Positions 1-9,067 of a stretch of DNA of 64,000 bases are shown piece by piece. A program made the position numbers and the translations under genes. The notes beneath the pieces are model-generated. The model saw nothing but the letters and a program-made list of their open reading frames with translations, did no database searches and had not been told where the DNA came from. This stretch comes from Alkalihalobacillus sp. AL-G (lineage in GTDB: Bacteria > Bacillota > Bacilli > Bacillales > Fictibacillaceae), in the NCBI RefSeq assembly GCF_030643805.1, contig NZ_CP094656.1:2356001-2420000 (forward strand), given 5' to 3'. Within the stretch, counting starts at the first letter, position 1; every line of letters starts with the position of its first letter.

Positions 1-1210
1 AAACACGAGCCCGAGCGTTCTTAGCCTTTTCGAGTTGTTGTTCGGCTTGGCGGAGTTCCTTCTCAAGTTGTTCCGTATCGTTTCCGTTGTTCCCGCCTAG
101 GTCCTTCTCGAGTTCTTCCTTATACTCGATTAGTTGTGCGTAAACTGCTGCGTCGACGTATTCCTCTTTTCCGCCTCCATTGCGGCAAACGATTCCGAAC
201 GGGTCCGCTTTTTGACACGATTTGACGAACACGACCGTTTTACCTTTGGCGTTCTTCCTCGTTACGAATGAGCGAGCGTATCCACAAGTACCGCATTTGA
301 TTAGTCCGCTATAACGTTTCGAGTGCATACGGTTCCGAGCGTGTTCTTTCGAACGACGATCGAATGTCTCTTTAAGAGTCGCAAACTCCTCCTCGGTCAT
401 AACTGCCTCGTGAGTGTCCTTCACGATAGTCCAATCACCACGAGCAACCTTTTCGAGTGGCTCTGTCTTTCGATCTAAGTGTCCGCTGCCTTTCGTTTTA
501 CCATAAACGGTATGTCCGAGATGTGTCTCATTCGTAAGGATTCGCTTTATTGCGACTTGGTTCCAATGCTTACCATAAGCGGTTTTGTAGCCTTTACGAT
601 TGAGCTCTTGGGCTAGCCTTAGAGCGGGCTCCCCTTTTAAGACTTGATTCTTTATATAGTCGAATAGGACTCGCTTATCCTCATTGACATATATGCGTTT
701 ATTGTCTCGGTCGTACTCGTAAGGGAATGGAGGCGGACCGTTGACCCATGCTCCCATTTTCGCACCGATTTTCTTACCACGTTGGAGTCGCTTTTTGATT
801 TGTCGATATTCGAATCGAGCCATAAGTCCGAGGAACTCCGAGAGCATTTCGTCCGATTCGTTTTTGAGGTCGAACACTTTTTGCGGTGTGATTATAAGAG
901 TATCGCTATCACGCAAAGCAGCTCGAATGATTGCCGCATCTTGGTCGTCTCCACGTCCTAGACGATCGTAGTCAATCACGATAACTGCGTCGAATAAGTC
1001 GTCTCGAATATCGTCGAGTAGCTCTAGCATTTTCGGACGATAGTCCAACGAGTCCCCGCTCGCAATCTCATTATAGAGAATCGGAGTCCATCGGTTGGAC
1101 TCGGCGAGTTCGGTTAATTCTCGTTTATGTTTTTCGAGGTCGTCGTCTCCCTCTCCTCGTGATTTCCGAAGATAGATTGCGACCTCTTTTATATCTCGTA
1201 TTTGTTCCAT
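1..1210 (-). CDS. Large serine recombinase (partial, C-terminus beyond window edge)
   Basis: This is a site-specific integrase of the large serine recombinase type, open from the ATG at 1210 to the window edge (403 codons seen). The resolvase-like catalytic domain spans about residues 8-150, with the nucleophile in YLRKSR (Ser17) and the downstream arginine-rich DYDRLGRGDD segment. A recombinase domain (GKKIGAKMGAWVNGPPPF onwards) covers about 155-280. A zinc ribbon follows (CGTCGY ... SCQK ... VC), and then a coiled coil begins near 380. The SD is AGGAACTT or GGGGGTG just upstream. Enzymes of this class insert and excise phages and integrative elements and usually lie next to one attachment site. 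Here the predicted junction is 1.4 kb away at 2568-2587. Codon use is rich in CGA and TCG, unlike the AT-rich genes beside it. The family call is firm; the element's remaining content is not visible. Confidence 0.95.
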   Translation of the reverse strand, partial: MEQIRDIKEVAIYLRKSRGEGDDDLEKHKRELTELAESNRWTPILYNEIASGDSLDYRPKMLELLDDIRDDLFDAVIVIDYDRLGRGDDQDAAIIRAALRDSDTLIITPQKVFDLKNESDEMLSEFLGLMARFEYRQIKKRLQRGKKIGAKMGAWVNGPPPFPYEYDRDNKRIYVNEDKRVLFDYIKNQVLKGEPALRLAQELNRKGYKTAYGKHWNQVAIKRILTNETHLGHTVYGKTKGSGHLDRKTEPLEKVARGDWTIVKDTHEAVMTEEEFATLKETFDRRSKEHARNRMHSKRYSGLIKCGTCGYARSFVTRKNAKGKTVVFVKSCQKADPFGIVCRNGGGKEEYVDAAVYAQLIEYKEELEKDLGGNNGNDTEQLEKELRQAEQQLEKAKNARARV

Positions 1211-1306: not shown

Positions 1307-1335
1307 TTGGAAAATTTTAAGTAATGTAGTAGAAT
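1307..1335 (+). promoter_or_regulatory. Sigma-A-type promoter of the membrane/TIR-like cassette
   Basis: TTGGAA at 1307-1312 and TAGAAT at 1330-1335 are separated by exactly 17 bases and point at the two-gene cassette. The leader then holds an A/T-rich inverted repeat, AAAAGAAAA / TTTTCTTTT (about 1349-1371), just before the SD, which could be an operator or a 5' stem. The call rests on consensus matching only. Confidence 0.6.
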
Positions 1336-1391: not shown

Positions 1392-1805
1392 ATGGAGTAT
1401 ACTTTACCGATATTTCTGCTTGGGCTAGGTTTTCTAATAAAACTATGGGTTAACAAGGAAACAACAAAACCACATTTACTCACTTCTGTATCAGAGTTAC
1501 CCGTGGATATAATGTTTTTAAGTTCAGCCTTAATAATCTCATATACCGAATTGCAGACCAAAAAGGTAGTTCTAAATAATGTTAGGAGCTCCGCAGATGT
1601 AATTGCTAGCAATATAAATAATGGATATATCATTTTTATTGGATACATAATCATAACATTTATTATAACTGCAATTTGGAGATGGAATAGGAGTTTTTTT
1701 GAAGCTGAAAGATGGGTAGTATTTAACATTATTCTTATTGTAAAACTTGGTTTGGCAATATATTGTCTGTACCATGCTATTACAAAACTAAACGAGGTGA
1801 TGTAA
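1392..1805 (+). CDS. Small four-helix membrane protein of the cassette, unknown function
   Basis: I do not recognise the family. The 137-residue protein has about four hydrophobic segments (residues 4-20, 38-52, 76-96 and 107-130). A short polar loop with SELPVDIMF lies before helix 2, and a WRWNR patch follows helix 3. The start at ATG 1392 has a strong G-run SD (TTAGGGGGGG) 9 bases upstream. Its stop is 2 bases before the ATG of the TIR-like gene, whose SD (GAGGTGATG) is inside this gene's end, so the two are translationally coupled. The sequence is markedly AT-rich compared with the recombinase and the chromosome. A plausible job, by inference, is as membrane partner, sensor or immunity partner of the downstream effector-like protein. 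Confidence 0.8.
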   Translation: MEYTLPIFLLGLGFLIKLWVNKETTKPHLLTSVSELPVDIMFLSSALIISYTELQTKKVVLNNVRSSADVIASNINNGYIIFIGYIIITFIITAIWRWNRSFFEAERWVVFNIILIVKLGLAIYCLYHAITKLNEVM

Positions 1806-1807
1806 CA

Positions 1808-2515
1808 ATGGACACACAAACTATATTGATACTTTTATTGGTTATTACATCACTAATGGTATCAGTGTTAACATTCTTGACAACAAAAATTAAAAGCAGC
1901 AGAGATAAGGTTTACGATTTTGAAATGAACCAAGCGAAGTATAATGATATGCGTAGATACTATGAATCAATTCTAGAGAAATATAATGAAAAACTTATGT
2001 CGCATGAGGAACGGTGGAAGGATGTAAACCATTTATTGTTAAATCAGAATAAGATAAATGAAAAGGATATAGAGCCCGAGGTGCATTATACTAATTTCTT
2101 ATTAAATCACGGTATTCAGGAAAAGGAACTAGAGGTCGATCGATATACCGCATTTTTACTGACATCATTTGATGAAAAATATAAAAATATAAGTGATGCA
2201 ATCAAAAATACTTGTAGAGGTATTGGATTAGAATGTTTACGAGGAGACGAAGAATATGTAGCGGGTGATTTATTACCACACATATTAAAGCATATTGTAA
2301 AAGCTCGAATTATAATTGCAAACATAGACGGGAGAAACCCAAATGTTTATTATGAATTAGGAATAGCACATGCATTAGGAAAACCAACAATACTGATTTC
2401 GAAAACTATTGATAAAGTTCCATTTGATATTAAATCGAAAAATATTATTCAATATAAAGATGCTTACGATTTACATCAAAAACTAACTAATGCCATATCA
2501 CGTGCGATACTTTAA
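1808..2515 (+). CDS. Membrane-anchored TIR-like / nucleoside deoxyribosyltransferase-like protein
   Basis: This 235-residue protein has an N-terminal membrane helix (4-26), a charged segment likely to form a coiled coil (30-75), and a C-terminal Rossmann-like domain from about 112 to 220. The diagnostic block is IANIDGRNPNVYYELGIAHALGK (172-191; quoted as its parts DGRNPNV and YYELGIAHAL). It is typical of TIR-like and nucleoside 2-deoxyribosyltransferase-like domains found in bacterial conflict proteins, and Glu183 is the likely catalytic residue. These folds cleave the N-glycosidic bond of nucleotides, in several cases NAD+. ATG 1808 is chosen because of the GAGGTGATG SD; an upstream in-frame start at 1763 would overlap the previous gene. 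A terminator begins at the stop codon. Activity and role are inferred: a defence or abortive-infection effector is likely but not shown. Confidence 0.82.
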   Translation: MDTQTILILLLVITSLMVSVLTFLTTKIKSSRDKVYDFEMNQAKYNDMRRYYESILEKYNEKLMSHEERWKDVNHLLLNQNKINEKDIEPEVHYTNFLLNHGIQEKELEVDRYTAFLLTSFDEKYKNISDAIKNTCRGIGLECLRGDEEYVAGDLLPHILKHIVKARIIIANIDGRNPNVYYELGIAHALGKPTILISKTIDKVPFDIKSKNIIQYKDAYDLHQKLTNAISRAIL

Positions 2516-2540
2516 AGCCGTTTTAATAACGGCTTTTTTC
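2514..2540 (+). terminator. Rho-independent terminator of the cassette
   Basis: The stem AAAGCCGTT / AACGGCTTT with loop TTAAT is followed by a T-run. It overlaps the stop codon of the TIR-like gene and closes the two-gene unit before the integration junction. Confidence 0.9.
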
Positions 2541-2567: not shown

Positions 2568-2587
2568 ACTTGTCATCAATGACAAGT
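2568..2587. other. Predicted attachment site junction (attR or attL) of the serine-recombinase element
   Basis: ACTTGTCAT and ATGACAAGT form a perfect 9-bp inverted repeat around a non-palindromic CA (2577-2578). This is the layout of a large serine recombinase site: symmetric arms and a 2-bp crossover. On the right arm, read on the minus strand, the sequence is continuous yyaL-type coding sequence up to the central dinucleotide. Beyond it, similarity to the family stops and a TGA appears. The arm to the left belongs to the element. The full site is probably 40-50 bp. The crossover position is inferred, not measured. Confidence 0.7.
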
Positions 2588-2746
2588 CGAATAACCGATG
2601 GAAACCATTACAGGCTTATTTTCACGCTTTGCCTTTCCAAAAGCTTCCTCTCCCCACGGATACCAATCGACTGGATTGTTTGCATGTTGAAGTAAGTAAG
2701 GGGACTTTTCTGCGATCAATCTATTGGGCTTCTGATTAGTTGTCAT
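2576..2746 (-). pseudogene. yyaL: yyaL-type (DUF255 thioredoxin-fold) gene, N-terminal fragment cut by integration
   Basis: From the ATG at 2746 (SD AGGAAGGTGATC) the frame encodes 56 residues and then TGA. The translation contains [26 protein letters not shown] and SIGYSTCH, which is the unmistakable start of the YyaL/SPATA20 family (DUF255, thioredoxin-like domain, about 680 residues when whole). The family continues WCHVM at exactly this point, so the CxxC-type motif is cut. The break coincides with the central dinucleotide of the inverted repeat at 2568-2587. The remaining roughly 620 codons should lie at the far end of the element, left of this window. The fragment alone cannot fold as a thioredoxin domain. 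Confidence 0.9.
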
Positions 2747-7976: not shown

Positions 7977-8290
7977 TTCACTACCTCCTCCCCATTTTTT
8001 GAACCTTGCATTAGTGACACCCGAAACGGATGCAAAGTTGCCTGCATGATACCGTTAACGACAGCAGGATCTCCATTCATAAGTTCCTCGGCTCTTTCGT
8101 ATGTATCGACCCTAAGAATGACCACCCCAAGTGAACCGTCTAAACAGGGGCCTGCTAATACGAGCTCACCCGTTTTCAAAAGGTTCTCTATGTATGCGAA
8201 ATGTTCCTCTAACACAGCTTCCTCTTCTTTAGTTACATCATTAATGAAGCCATCCCGATTTGGAATCAATTTATAAAGGTACTCCGCCAT
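7973..8290 (-). CDS. YciI-like protein
   Basis: The 105-residue protein has the YciI dimeric alpha/beta-barrel fold. YLYKLIPNRDGFINDVTKEEE begins it, HFAYIENLLKTGELVLAGPCLDGSLGVVILR holds the conserved histidine and GP(C/F)xDG motif, and NGDPAVVNGI follows. Family members are suspected of dehalogenase- or isomerase-like chemistry, but none is assigned here. It overlaps the DUF962 gene by 4 bases and is the first gene of this two-gene unit. Confidence 0.88.
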   Translation of the reverse strand: MAEYLYKLIPNRDGFINDVTKEEEAVLEEHFAYIENLLKTGELVLAGPCLDGSLGVVILRVDTYERAEELMNGDPAVVNGIMQATLHPFRVSLMQGSKNGEEVVK

Positions 8291-8352
8291 TTGAATATTC
8301 CTCCTTTACCCCCTTTTATTACTTTCTTTCTTACTATTTAAATTCCTCTATT

Positions 8353-8372
8353 CCAGTACGGTACGTGAAATT
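8353..8372. repeat. 20-bp direct repeat, copy A
   Basis: CCAGTACGGTACGTGAAATT occurs here, abutting the stop codon of the 87-residue gene, and again at 8762-8781. Similar bases follow both copies (TTCATATCTTCG and TTCACATCTTCGG), so the second looks like a decayed duplicate of this gene end. Confidence 0.6.
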
Positions 8373-8636
8373 TTATAACCAGTATGAGGAAATCTGATTC
8401 ATATCTTCGCATAGTGCACTTCTTTCGTCTGGATGAACCATGACTGGTATTTGATCATATAAGGTAATGTAAACTGTCCTATCATCATCTTGATTATTCA
8501 AATAGTGTTGCAGCTGTTGAAACTGTCTCTCGGATAGAACACATTGTACGGAAAGCTGTTTTACTCTCATTAAAGTAAACGCCTTTTCCTCCTCATCCCA
8601 ATTACCACCTAAAACCGGTCCATCATACTCTTTCAT
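8373..8636 (-). CDS. Hypothetical protein, 87 residues
   Basis: I do not recognise this protein. It is acidic and soluble: EYDGPVLGGNWDEEEKAFTLMRV at the start, then a beta-strand and helix pattern VQCVLSERQFQQLQHYL, and VYITLYDQIPVMVHPDE. No membrane segment is seen. ATG 8636 has an AGGAGGCA-type SD. A 20-bp repeat touches its stop codon. It is a stand-alone minus-strand gene. Confidence 0.65.
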   Translation of the reverse strand: MKEYDGPVLGGNWDEEEKAFTLMRVKQLSVQCVLSERQFQQLQHYLNNQDDDRTVYITLYDQIPVMVHPDERSALCEDMNQISSYWL

Positions 8637-8761
8637 ATGGATTGCCTCCTTCTAATAGACACACTATTCTTCTGTTAGGGTGGAATGTATGATTGAAGTT
8701 TATACAATTGGTTTTGAATCCCCTTTGTTATCCTACTAATTGCTTTTCAAAAAAAATCATC

Positions 8762-8781
8762 CCAGTACGGTACGTGAAATT
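8762..8781. repeat. 20-bp direct repeat, copy B
   Basis: This is an exact second copy of the sequence at 8353-8372, 409 bases away in the same orientation, in sequence without a clear gene. Confidence 0.6.
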
Positions 8782-8825
8782 AATTCACATCTTCGGACAA
8801 TAAGCCTACGTCCACAACATATTTA

Positions 8826-8856
8826 AAAAGAAGCGATTCACTCGGGACCGCTTCTT
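8826..8856 (-). terminator. Terminator of the 70-residue membrane protein gene
   Basis: AAGAAGCG and CGCTTCTT form the stem, overlapping the stop codon and followed by a T-rich tract on the minus strand. Confidence 0.75.
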
Positions 8857-9067
8857 ACTTTTCTATATGATTTCCATCTTGCTCATTTTGGTTATCCTTT
8901 GTTTCGAAGGTTGCGTCAGTTGTTTGCTCCAATTTGGACAGCTCCTTCGCCGATTGTCTTCGAATAATAATAGTAGCTATGATCGCTCCTGTAACAAAGA
9001 TGAATAACATGATGAGCGATGGAATATATTCACTTTTGTCTTCAGGAAAATAAAGAAATGGCATCAT
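8855..9067 (-). CDS. Small single-pass membrane protein, unknown
   Basis: The 70-residue protein has one hydrophobic segment (about 15-35, IPSLIMLFIFVTGAIIATIII) followed by RRQ and a long acidic, Gln/Asn-rich cytoplasmic tail (KLEQTTDATFETKDNQNEQDG). The positive residues after the helix suggest the tail is inside. The SD is GGGTGGG. No family is recognised and the function is unknown. Confidence 0.6.
   Translation of the reverse strand: MMPFLYFPEDKSEYIPSLIMLFIFVTGAIIATIIIRRQSAKELSKLEQTTDATFETKDNQNEQDGNHIEK

Follow-up and report, generated by a model that had tools for sequence, protein, structure and literature searches.

The gene pair and its products

The window analysed here is a 64,000-nucleotide stretch of the forward strand of Alkalihalobacillus sp. 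AL-G (contig NZ_CP094656.1, positions 2,356,001 to 2,420,000), and our subject is a pair of genes at its positions 1392 to 2515, which encode a small membrane protein and a membrane-anchored protein with a domain like those of Toll/interleukin-1 receptor (TIR) proteins and nucleoside deoxyribosyltransferases (NDTs). An initial annotation, made by a model from the sequence, had proposed that the pair is an undescribed defence system. The two genes and their signals, all on the plus strand, are:

1307..1335, +: promoter-like TTGGAA-17-TAGAAT, 9/12 match to consensus
1392..1805, +: gene 1, small membrane protein of 137 residues with four predicted helices
1794..1800, +: GAGGTGA, read by eye; overlaps the 3' end of gene 1 and probably serves gene 2 as ribosome-binding site
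1808..2515, + (ATG at 1808): gene 2, membrane-anchored TIR/NDT-like protein of 235 residues
2138..2512, +: TIR/NDT-fold domain, gene 2 residues 111-235; model aligned to DNPH1, MilB, SPARTA TIR and SARM1
2354..2356, +: encodes Glu183, putatively catalytic and the same in all 24 pairs aligned
2514..2536, +: intrinsic-terminator-like hairpin directly 3' of gene 2, from a hairpin scan

Both reading frames, and the two bases between the end of gene 1 and the start of gene 2, lie where the initial annotation had put them, and the two Shine-Dalgarno sequences that it reported can be read by eye, as a run of G upstream of 1392 and as the GAGGTGA before 1808. Given that the GAGGTGA lies inside the end of gene 1, the two genes are probably coupled in translation. 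The pair is AT-rich, as had been said, with a GC content of ~30% against 46-49% in the neighbouring recombinase gene. The proposed terminator is rightly placed, but the hairpin is weak evidence alone, since one was found where 0.9 were expected in shuffled sequences. The claim of a promoter belonging to the pair is weak, because the region yields such a match by chance: 15 sites as good as the one at 1307-1335 were found against 8.3 (standard deviation 2.9) expected.

The AlphaFold2 model of the gene 1 protein has a mean predicted local distance difference test score (pLDDT) of 92.4 and bears out the four-helix protein described earlier; helices 4-20, 26-65, 68-104 and 108-136 occupy nearly the whole chain. 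In alignments read at first from 21 pairs and later from 24, Pro37 is invariant (24 of 24), and position 39, D39 in the window copy, is acidic in 23 of 24. No family was matched consistently by 21 members in Pfam or PADLOC, where there were scattered single matches only, including one weak SAVED_TM match in PADLOC. The window copy matched nothing in NCBIfam or PHROGs, and no fold was matched convincingly. SIR2, SLOG and macro were absent among the 16 Pfam families listed for the 21 small proteins at E ≤ 0.1.

The gene 2 protein consists of an N-terminal membrane helix, a coiled linker with conserved residues R49, E53, N74 and L76, and the TIR/NDT-fold domain. By its predicted fold this domain fits the TIR/NDT (TIR-DRHyd-SLOG) superfamily; structurally it is nearest to DNPH1 and MilB, the best matches, and to TIR domains. 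In the model Glu183 sits in helix 178-189, which follows the third strand (168-172), and this placement suggests that it is the catalytic position. The TIR/deoxyribosyltransferase-like domain with Glu183 that had been read from the sequence is thereby recovered in the structure model, in its library matches and in the invariance of the Glu. Among profile matches, the nearest Pfam family, Nuc_deoxyrib_tr, was found in 19 of 21 gene 2 proteins with E no better than 1.7e-5, the PADLOC TIR effector model PDLC00733 matched all 21, and one of the 21 matched the PADLOC ThsA model (1.2e-4). For the 2TM SLATT domain, NCBIfam SLATT_4 matched residues 9-86 of the window's gene 2 protein weakly (3.1e-4; 20.6 bits, with a cut-off of 55).

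A recurrent two-gene family

The small and large proteins are a real two-gene family inherited as a unit. Both genes lie side by side at 28 distinct loci. Judged by record titles, these come from Bacillota, Pseudomonadota, Bacteroidota, Actinomycetota and Elusimicrobiota and from viral contigs (6 of the 28 loci are IMG/VR contigs). The small gene comes first in all 24 pairs measured, with an intergenic spacing of -26 to +12 nucleotides. The initial annotation would have given up its reading had the genes rarely co-occurred, or had the TIR/NDT fold or a conserved Glu been lacking; these results show repeated co-occurrence, the fold in the model and an invariant Glu, so that its interpretation is partly supported, in anatomy and in co-occurrence.

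A search with the large protein found full-length relatives in viral contigs and in GTDB species genomes. It gave 74 genome loci, 17 of which match over long stretches, and a short open reading frame (ORF) with several transmembrane (TM) segments lies directly upstream in 20 of 20 cases (the 17 genome loci and 3 viral loci). The remaining 57 genome loci match mainly in the TIR/NDT domain and were excluded from membership; some of them, e.g., L037, are cut by a contig end and hence unclassifiable. For the first 19 of the 57 (one, L039, had no ORF) and for 29 of 80 viral loci, the upstream gene was checked. All ORFs of at least 50 residues at every locus then in the set were scanned with two profiles, one for the small protein and one for the N-terminal half of the large protein. 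Both were recognised at 24 distinct loci, the N-terminal half alone at one (L094) and the small protein alone at none, in a set with 180 ORFs bearing a TIR-type domain at E < 1e-5 (duplicate loci counted). Repeat fetches were otherwise counted once (L001/L003/L009; L013/L092; L014/L095; L091). Profile building had used 21 of the 24 pairs, leaving out L089, L090 and L093. When each small protein was scored against a profile of the others, all 24 reached 42-100 bits, while 69 multi-TM decoy ORFs reached at most 14.9 and shuffled sequences at most 11.8. Because these scores exceed those of the decoys with the circularity removed, the small proteins are one homologous family.

The small-protein profile alone served as an independent test of the pairing. 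It was run on 398 genomes of the phylum and on three groups chosen as pair holders, namely the genus of L017 and the families of L029 and L030. The 398 genomes gave two matches, one of them strong (the window's own); the 242 genomes of the genus gave two, both previously known; the 296 genomes of the L029 family gave ten, five of them strong; and the 152 genomes of the L030 family gave two, both strong. At all four new strong matches (L180, L181, L183 and L190) the small gene adjoins a large protein in which both halves were recognised. Strong matches are thus sporadic, in 1/398, 2/242, 5/296 and 2/152 genomes. Each of the 16 pair-holding genomes searched (of 17; L021 was outside the search) has a single small-family match at E ≤ 0.001, located at the pair. 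The distances among small proteins correlate with those among large proteins (Mantel r 0.633, reached in 0 of 10,000 permutations; r 0.491, unpermuted, after one of two close relatives was dropped). No third gene recurs across 23 loci in an all-against-all BLASTP of ORFs of at least 80 residues, whose largest shared clusters were recombinases, shadow ORFs of gene 2 and, in five loci but at varying places, ORFs that by eye resemble methyltransferases.

Searches with single sequences behaved differently. The window's small protein found no new relative by tblastn of plasmids and phages, in viral contigs (one search returned its own contig only) or in 99 relatives besides the window's own genome. 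Single-sequence searches fail because the small family diverges too fast, with a mean pairwise identity of 20%; profile searches worked. With the gene 2 protein, tblastn found no place covering 80% of the query in the 42 phage and 88 plasmid records with matches. The longest match (H41) covers 74%, residues 47-219, in a 358-residue protein encoded on a plasmid of Levilactobacillus, where the annotation shows no small gene immediately upstream. Five of the 99 relatives gave TIR/NDT-domain matches only, the large-protein profile at E ≤ 1e-30 found the window's own protein and one domain-only match (G245) in the 398 genomes, and three tblastn searches using other family members gave no pair. Weak profile matches of about 20 bits in six genomes (L171 and L184-L188) were treated as chance, because neither half of the partner lies in the ~3.2 kb fetched and the frames are open for at least 297 residues; by eye, the L171 match falls inside a transporter-like ORF of 433 residues.

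Possible roles and relation to known systems

The pair is an unnamed two-gene family that joins a known effector fold to a new membrane partner. TIR-fold enzymes underlie many immune systems, and how membrane events reach the bacterial ones is, to our knowledge, poorly understood. On balance we think it slightly more likely than not that the pair is a membrane-bound and probably anti-phage module, in which the partner senses or gates and controls a tethered glycohydrolase. Gene 2 would be the effector, its membrane helix and coiled linker presenting a cytosolic TIR/NDT-type glycohydrolase, and the four-helix gene 1 protein would be an integral membrane partner that packs on the gene 2 helix and keeps the effector inactive. 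A phage-induced membrane event (DNA entry, a phage membrane protein or loss of potential) might be relayed through the partner's helices so as to cluster or realign the effector domains, and the Glu183 enzyme would then cleave NAD+, or the N-glycosidic bond of a nucleotide, and so bring the infected cell to arrest. Direct control within the membrane is the simplest scheme, because a ligand-binding domain would not fit in the small protein and the enzyme is tethered. More tentatively, and with doubt outweighing confidence, we suggest that the pair represents an undescribed, phylum-crossing immune system, in which four-helix membrane sensors of a new family directly switch a membrane-tethered TIR/NDT glycohydrolase with no diffusible messenger, and which would be a bacterial counterpart in plan to TIR-bearing membrane receptors. 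If so, it would be a minimal two-gene system for asking how a membrane signal switches a TIR-type enzyme; the 28 pairs supply alignments, and the conserved E183, P37, D39 and R49 supply targets for mutation.

A number of findings count against a membrane-controlled anti-phage module. L094 has the N-terminal half of gene 2 (E 1.2e-8) with no small gene, and in L181 the profile-matched part of the small gene seems to be interrupted by a stop codon in frame. The gene 2 model falls below a pLDDT of 50 at residues 84-92 and has a predicted TM-score of 0.63. NAD+ may not be the substrate, because the nearest folds are nucleotide N-hydrolases. The neighbours of the pair were taken as 83 proteins at 23 loci, picked by hand from 122 script-listed ORFs, with likely wrong frames left out and a few further genes added. 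Defence-type neighbours are few: among the first 25 of 43 PADLOC families there were mad2 (two), RmrA (two), a single TIR-NLR and scattered candidate families, and some pairs stand beside ordinary host genes (groEL at L016 and an rlmH-like gene at L022).

Such host genes would suit a role outside defence, the large protein serving ordinary metabolism or a response to membrane stress as a membrane-associated nucleotide N-hydrolase or signalling enzyme. This reading also draws on DNPH1 and MilB, both nucleotide N-glycosidases, as the best structural matches, and on Nuc_deoxyrib_tr as the nearest Pfam family (19 of 21 members), but we think it improbable given the sporadic distribution of strong matches, the copies on mobile elements and the fast divergence of the small protein. 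Less improbable, though still unlikely, is a relay like that of Thoeris, in which the TIR/NDT domain would sense infection and make an ADP-ribose-type or nucleotide signal, with the four-helix protein as an effector that opens a pore on binding this signal. Thoeris too has two genes, one of them for a TIR-fold enzyme, and in its variant with TM-macro ThsA a TIR protein stands beside a membrane protein (PMC11204291); the same plan has been proposed for the phage AC1 system (PMC9122126). In the present pair, however, the TIR-like protein bears the anchor, which a diffusible messenger does not need, and the partner is four helices that fill the chain, with no ligand-binding domain and no SIR2, SLOG or macro match, the one weak SAVED_TM match being set against 21 small proteins.

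The close linkage of the two genes, which stand in the order small then large in each of 24 pairs measured, could instead be that of a toxin-antitoxin-like unit, gene 2 being toxic alone and the small protein a membrane inhibitor that stabilises the element, with defence secondary or absent. We rate this the least probable explanation. Part of the copies are on mobile elements, and only one of 25 loci (L094) has the N-terminal half of gene 2 alone; but that copy stands with neither partner nor predicted membrane helix, and conservation of the central linker hints, weakly, at a partner that does more than inhibit.

As the initial annotation had supposed, no named system of this composition turned up in PADLOC scans or when open-licence papers were searched in full text. 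Kiwa consists of the membrane protein KwaA and of KwaB, and so resembles the pair in having a small four-TM protein with an effector at the membrane; the effector here differs in its TIR/NDT fold. Scanned with PADLOC, which we presume to contain Kiwa models, 21 small and 21 large proteins gave no listed match to KwaA or KwaB. DNPH1, MilB and nucleoside 2-deoxyribosyltransferase share the nearest fold and a candidate catalytic Glu with gene 2, but they are soluble enzymes, and the gene 2 protein is membrane-tethered and paired. The phage AC1 system, which we take to be the one labelled 'Rst_2TM_1TM_TIR', also encodes a TIR protein with membrane proteins, and is set apart from the pair by gene composition, three genes against two. 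This P2-like phage's TIR and transmembrane proteins have been shown to protect E. coli C (PMC9122126). Swarozyc, a DUF4062 TIR-like NADase described as activated by the phage portal (PMC13174449), is similar in its TIR/NDT-like domain, conserved Glu and helical stalk; the present family differs in its membrane helix and dedicated membrane partner, and DUF4062 is absent among the six Pfam families that 21 large proteins matched at E ≤ 0.01. From the TIR effectors of SPARTA, CBASS and Pycsar the gene 2 protein differs in that its PADLOC match is confined to positions 276-363 of a 388-position model. Among the 10 element proteins scanned there was neither an Argonaute nor a nucleotide cyclase family, and no CD-NTase (CBASS) was found in the window operon or among those 10, the neighbours at other loci being partly listed. 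The main text of the DefensePredictor paper has no word starting with TIR (PMC13092281). TIR, DRHyd and SLOG domains have been linked to one another as potential producers of nucleotide signals in conflict systems (PMC7159879).

The host element and the surroundings of other copies

The source genome is a single contig of 4,155,898 bases, and the element that carries the pair is ~14,620 bases (~14.6 kb) long. It is inserted in, and splits, a yyaL-like (DUF255) gene, yyaL being the name that we presume for it. Its features in the window are:

2..1210, -: large serine recombinase of the element, divergent from the pair and continuing past the window start
2577..2587, no strand: attachment core ACTTG[T/C]CATTG, common to both ends, at one element end
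2577..2746, -: 5' portion of the interrupted yyaL-like (DUF255) host gene, with the remainder at L002:4068-5972

The whole recombinase has 498 residues (L002:17714-19210), and the second copy of the core is at genome position 2343956 (L002:5956-5966). When the flanks are joined, the yyaL-like reading frame is uninterrupted over the stretch examined, and the core with its flanking inverted repeat, seen by eye, fits a serine-recombinase attachment site. The pair lies between recombinase and core, as the final cargo before that element end, so the siting between integrase and attachment site given earlier was right. The element further encodes a D12 adenine methylase, a DUF7690/DUF7687 protein, a T5orf172/MUG113 protein and a resolvase. 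The first two, on opposite strands at L002:6838-7740 and 8056-8958, are possibly a restriction-modification pair. A second, distinct yyaL-like 5' fragment (...SIGYS) lies just inside the far element end (L002:6000-6110, genome ~2344000-2344110) and may be left over from an earlier insertion, or may once have served to restore the split gene. Near the recombinase, a protein of 210 residues (L002:16667-17299) with no Pfam match has an RNNLVH stretch reminiscent of the HEPN motif.

At the 23 loci with neighbours scanned, among the first 25 families listed, the neighbours include at least three Resolvase/Recombinase proteins, two tyrosine integrases and transposases, together with portal and terminase proteins, DnaB and primases. 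Part of the loci are thus sited on mobile DNA; because the neighbour set has no random control, mobility is claimed for that part and no enrichment is claimed. As for the suggested siting near integrases or defence genes, there are copies in phages and beside recombinases; defence-type neighbours were few, and the neighbourhood is not in itself proof of a role in defence.

Single loci added some detail. In Exiguobacterium undae (L022:3373-3855) the pair is near the rlmH-like gene, of the SPOUT methyltransferase family; rlmH is a known entry site of staphylococcal cassette chromosome (SCC) elements in staphylococci. Pfam on the 83 neighbours gave one Acb1 and one Phage_portal_3 match, and at L093:3487-5331 a phage portal-like protein with an Acb1-like C-terminus (assigned to the ORF by eye) is upstream of the pair, which would make an anti-CBASS gene the neighbour of candidate defence genes. 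The solo large-protein relative at L094:5971-6570, with neither predicted membrane helix nor small partner, is a useful contrast for the partner's role. Finally, the large protein at L190:749-1498 ends in ALQRTSR, a tail that we take to be read-through into integron attC sites, and this pair may travel as an integron cassette.
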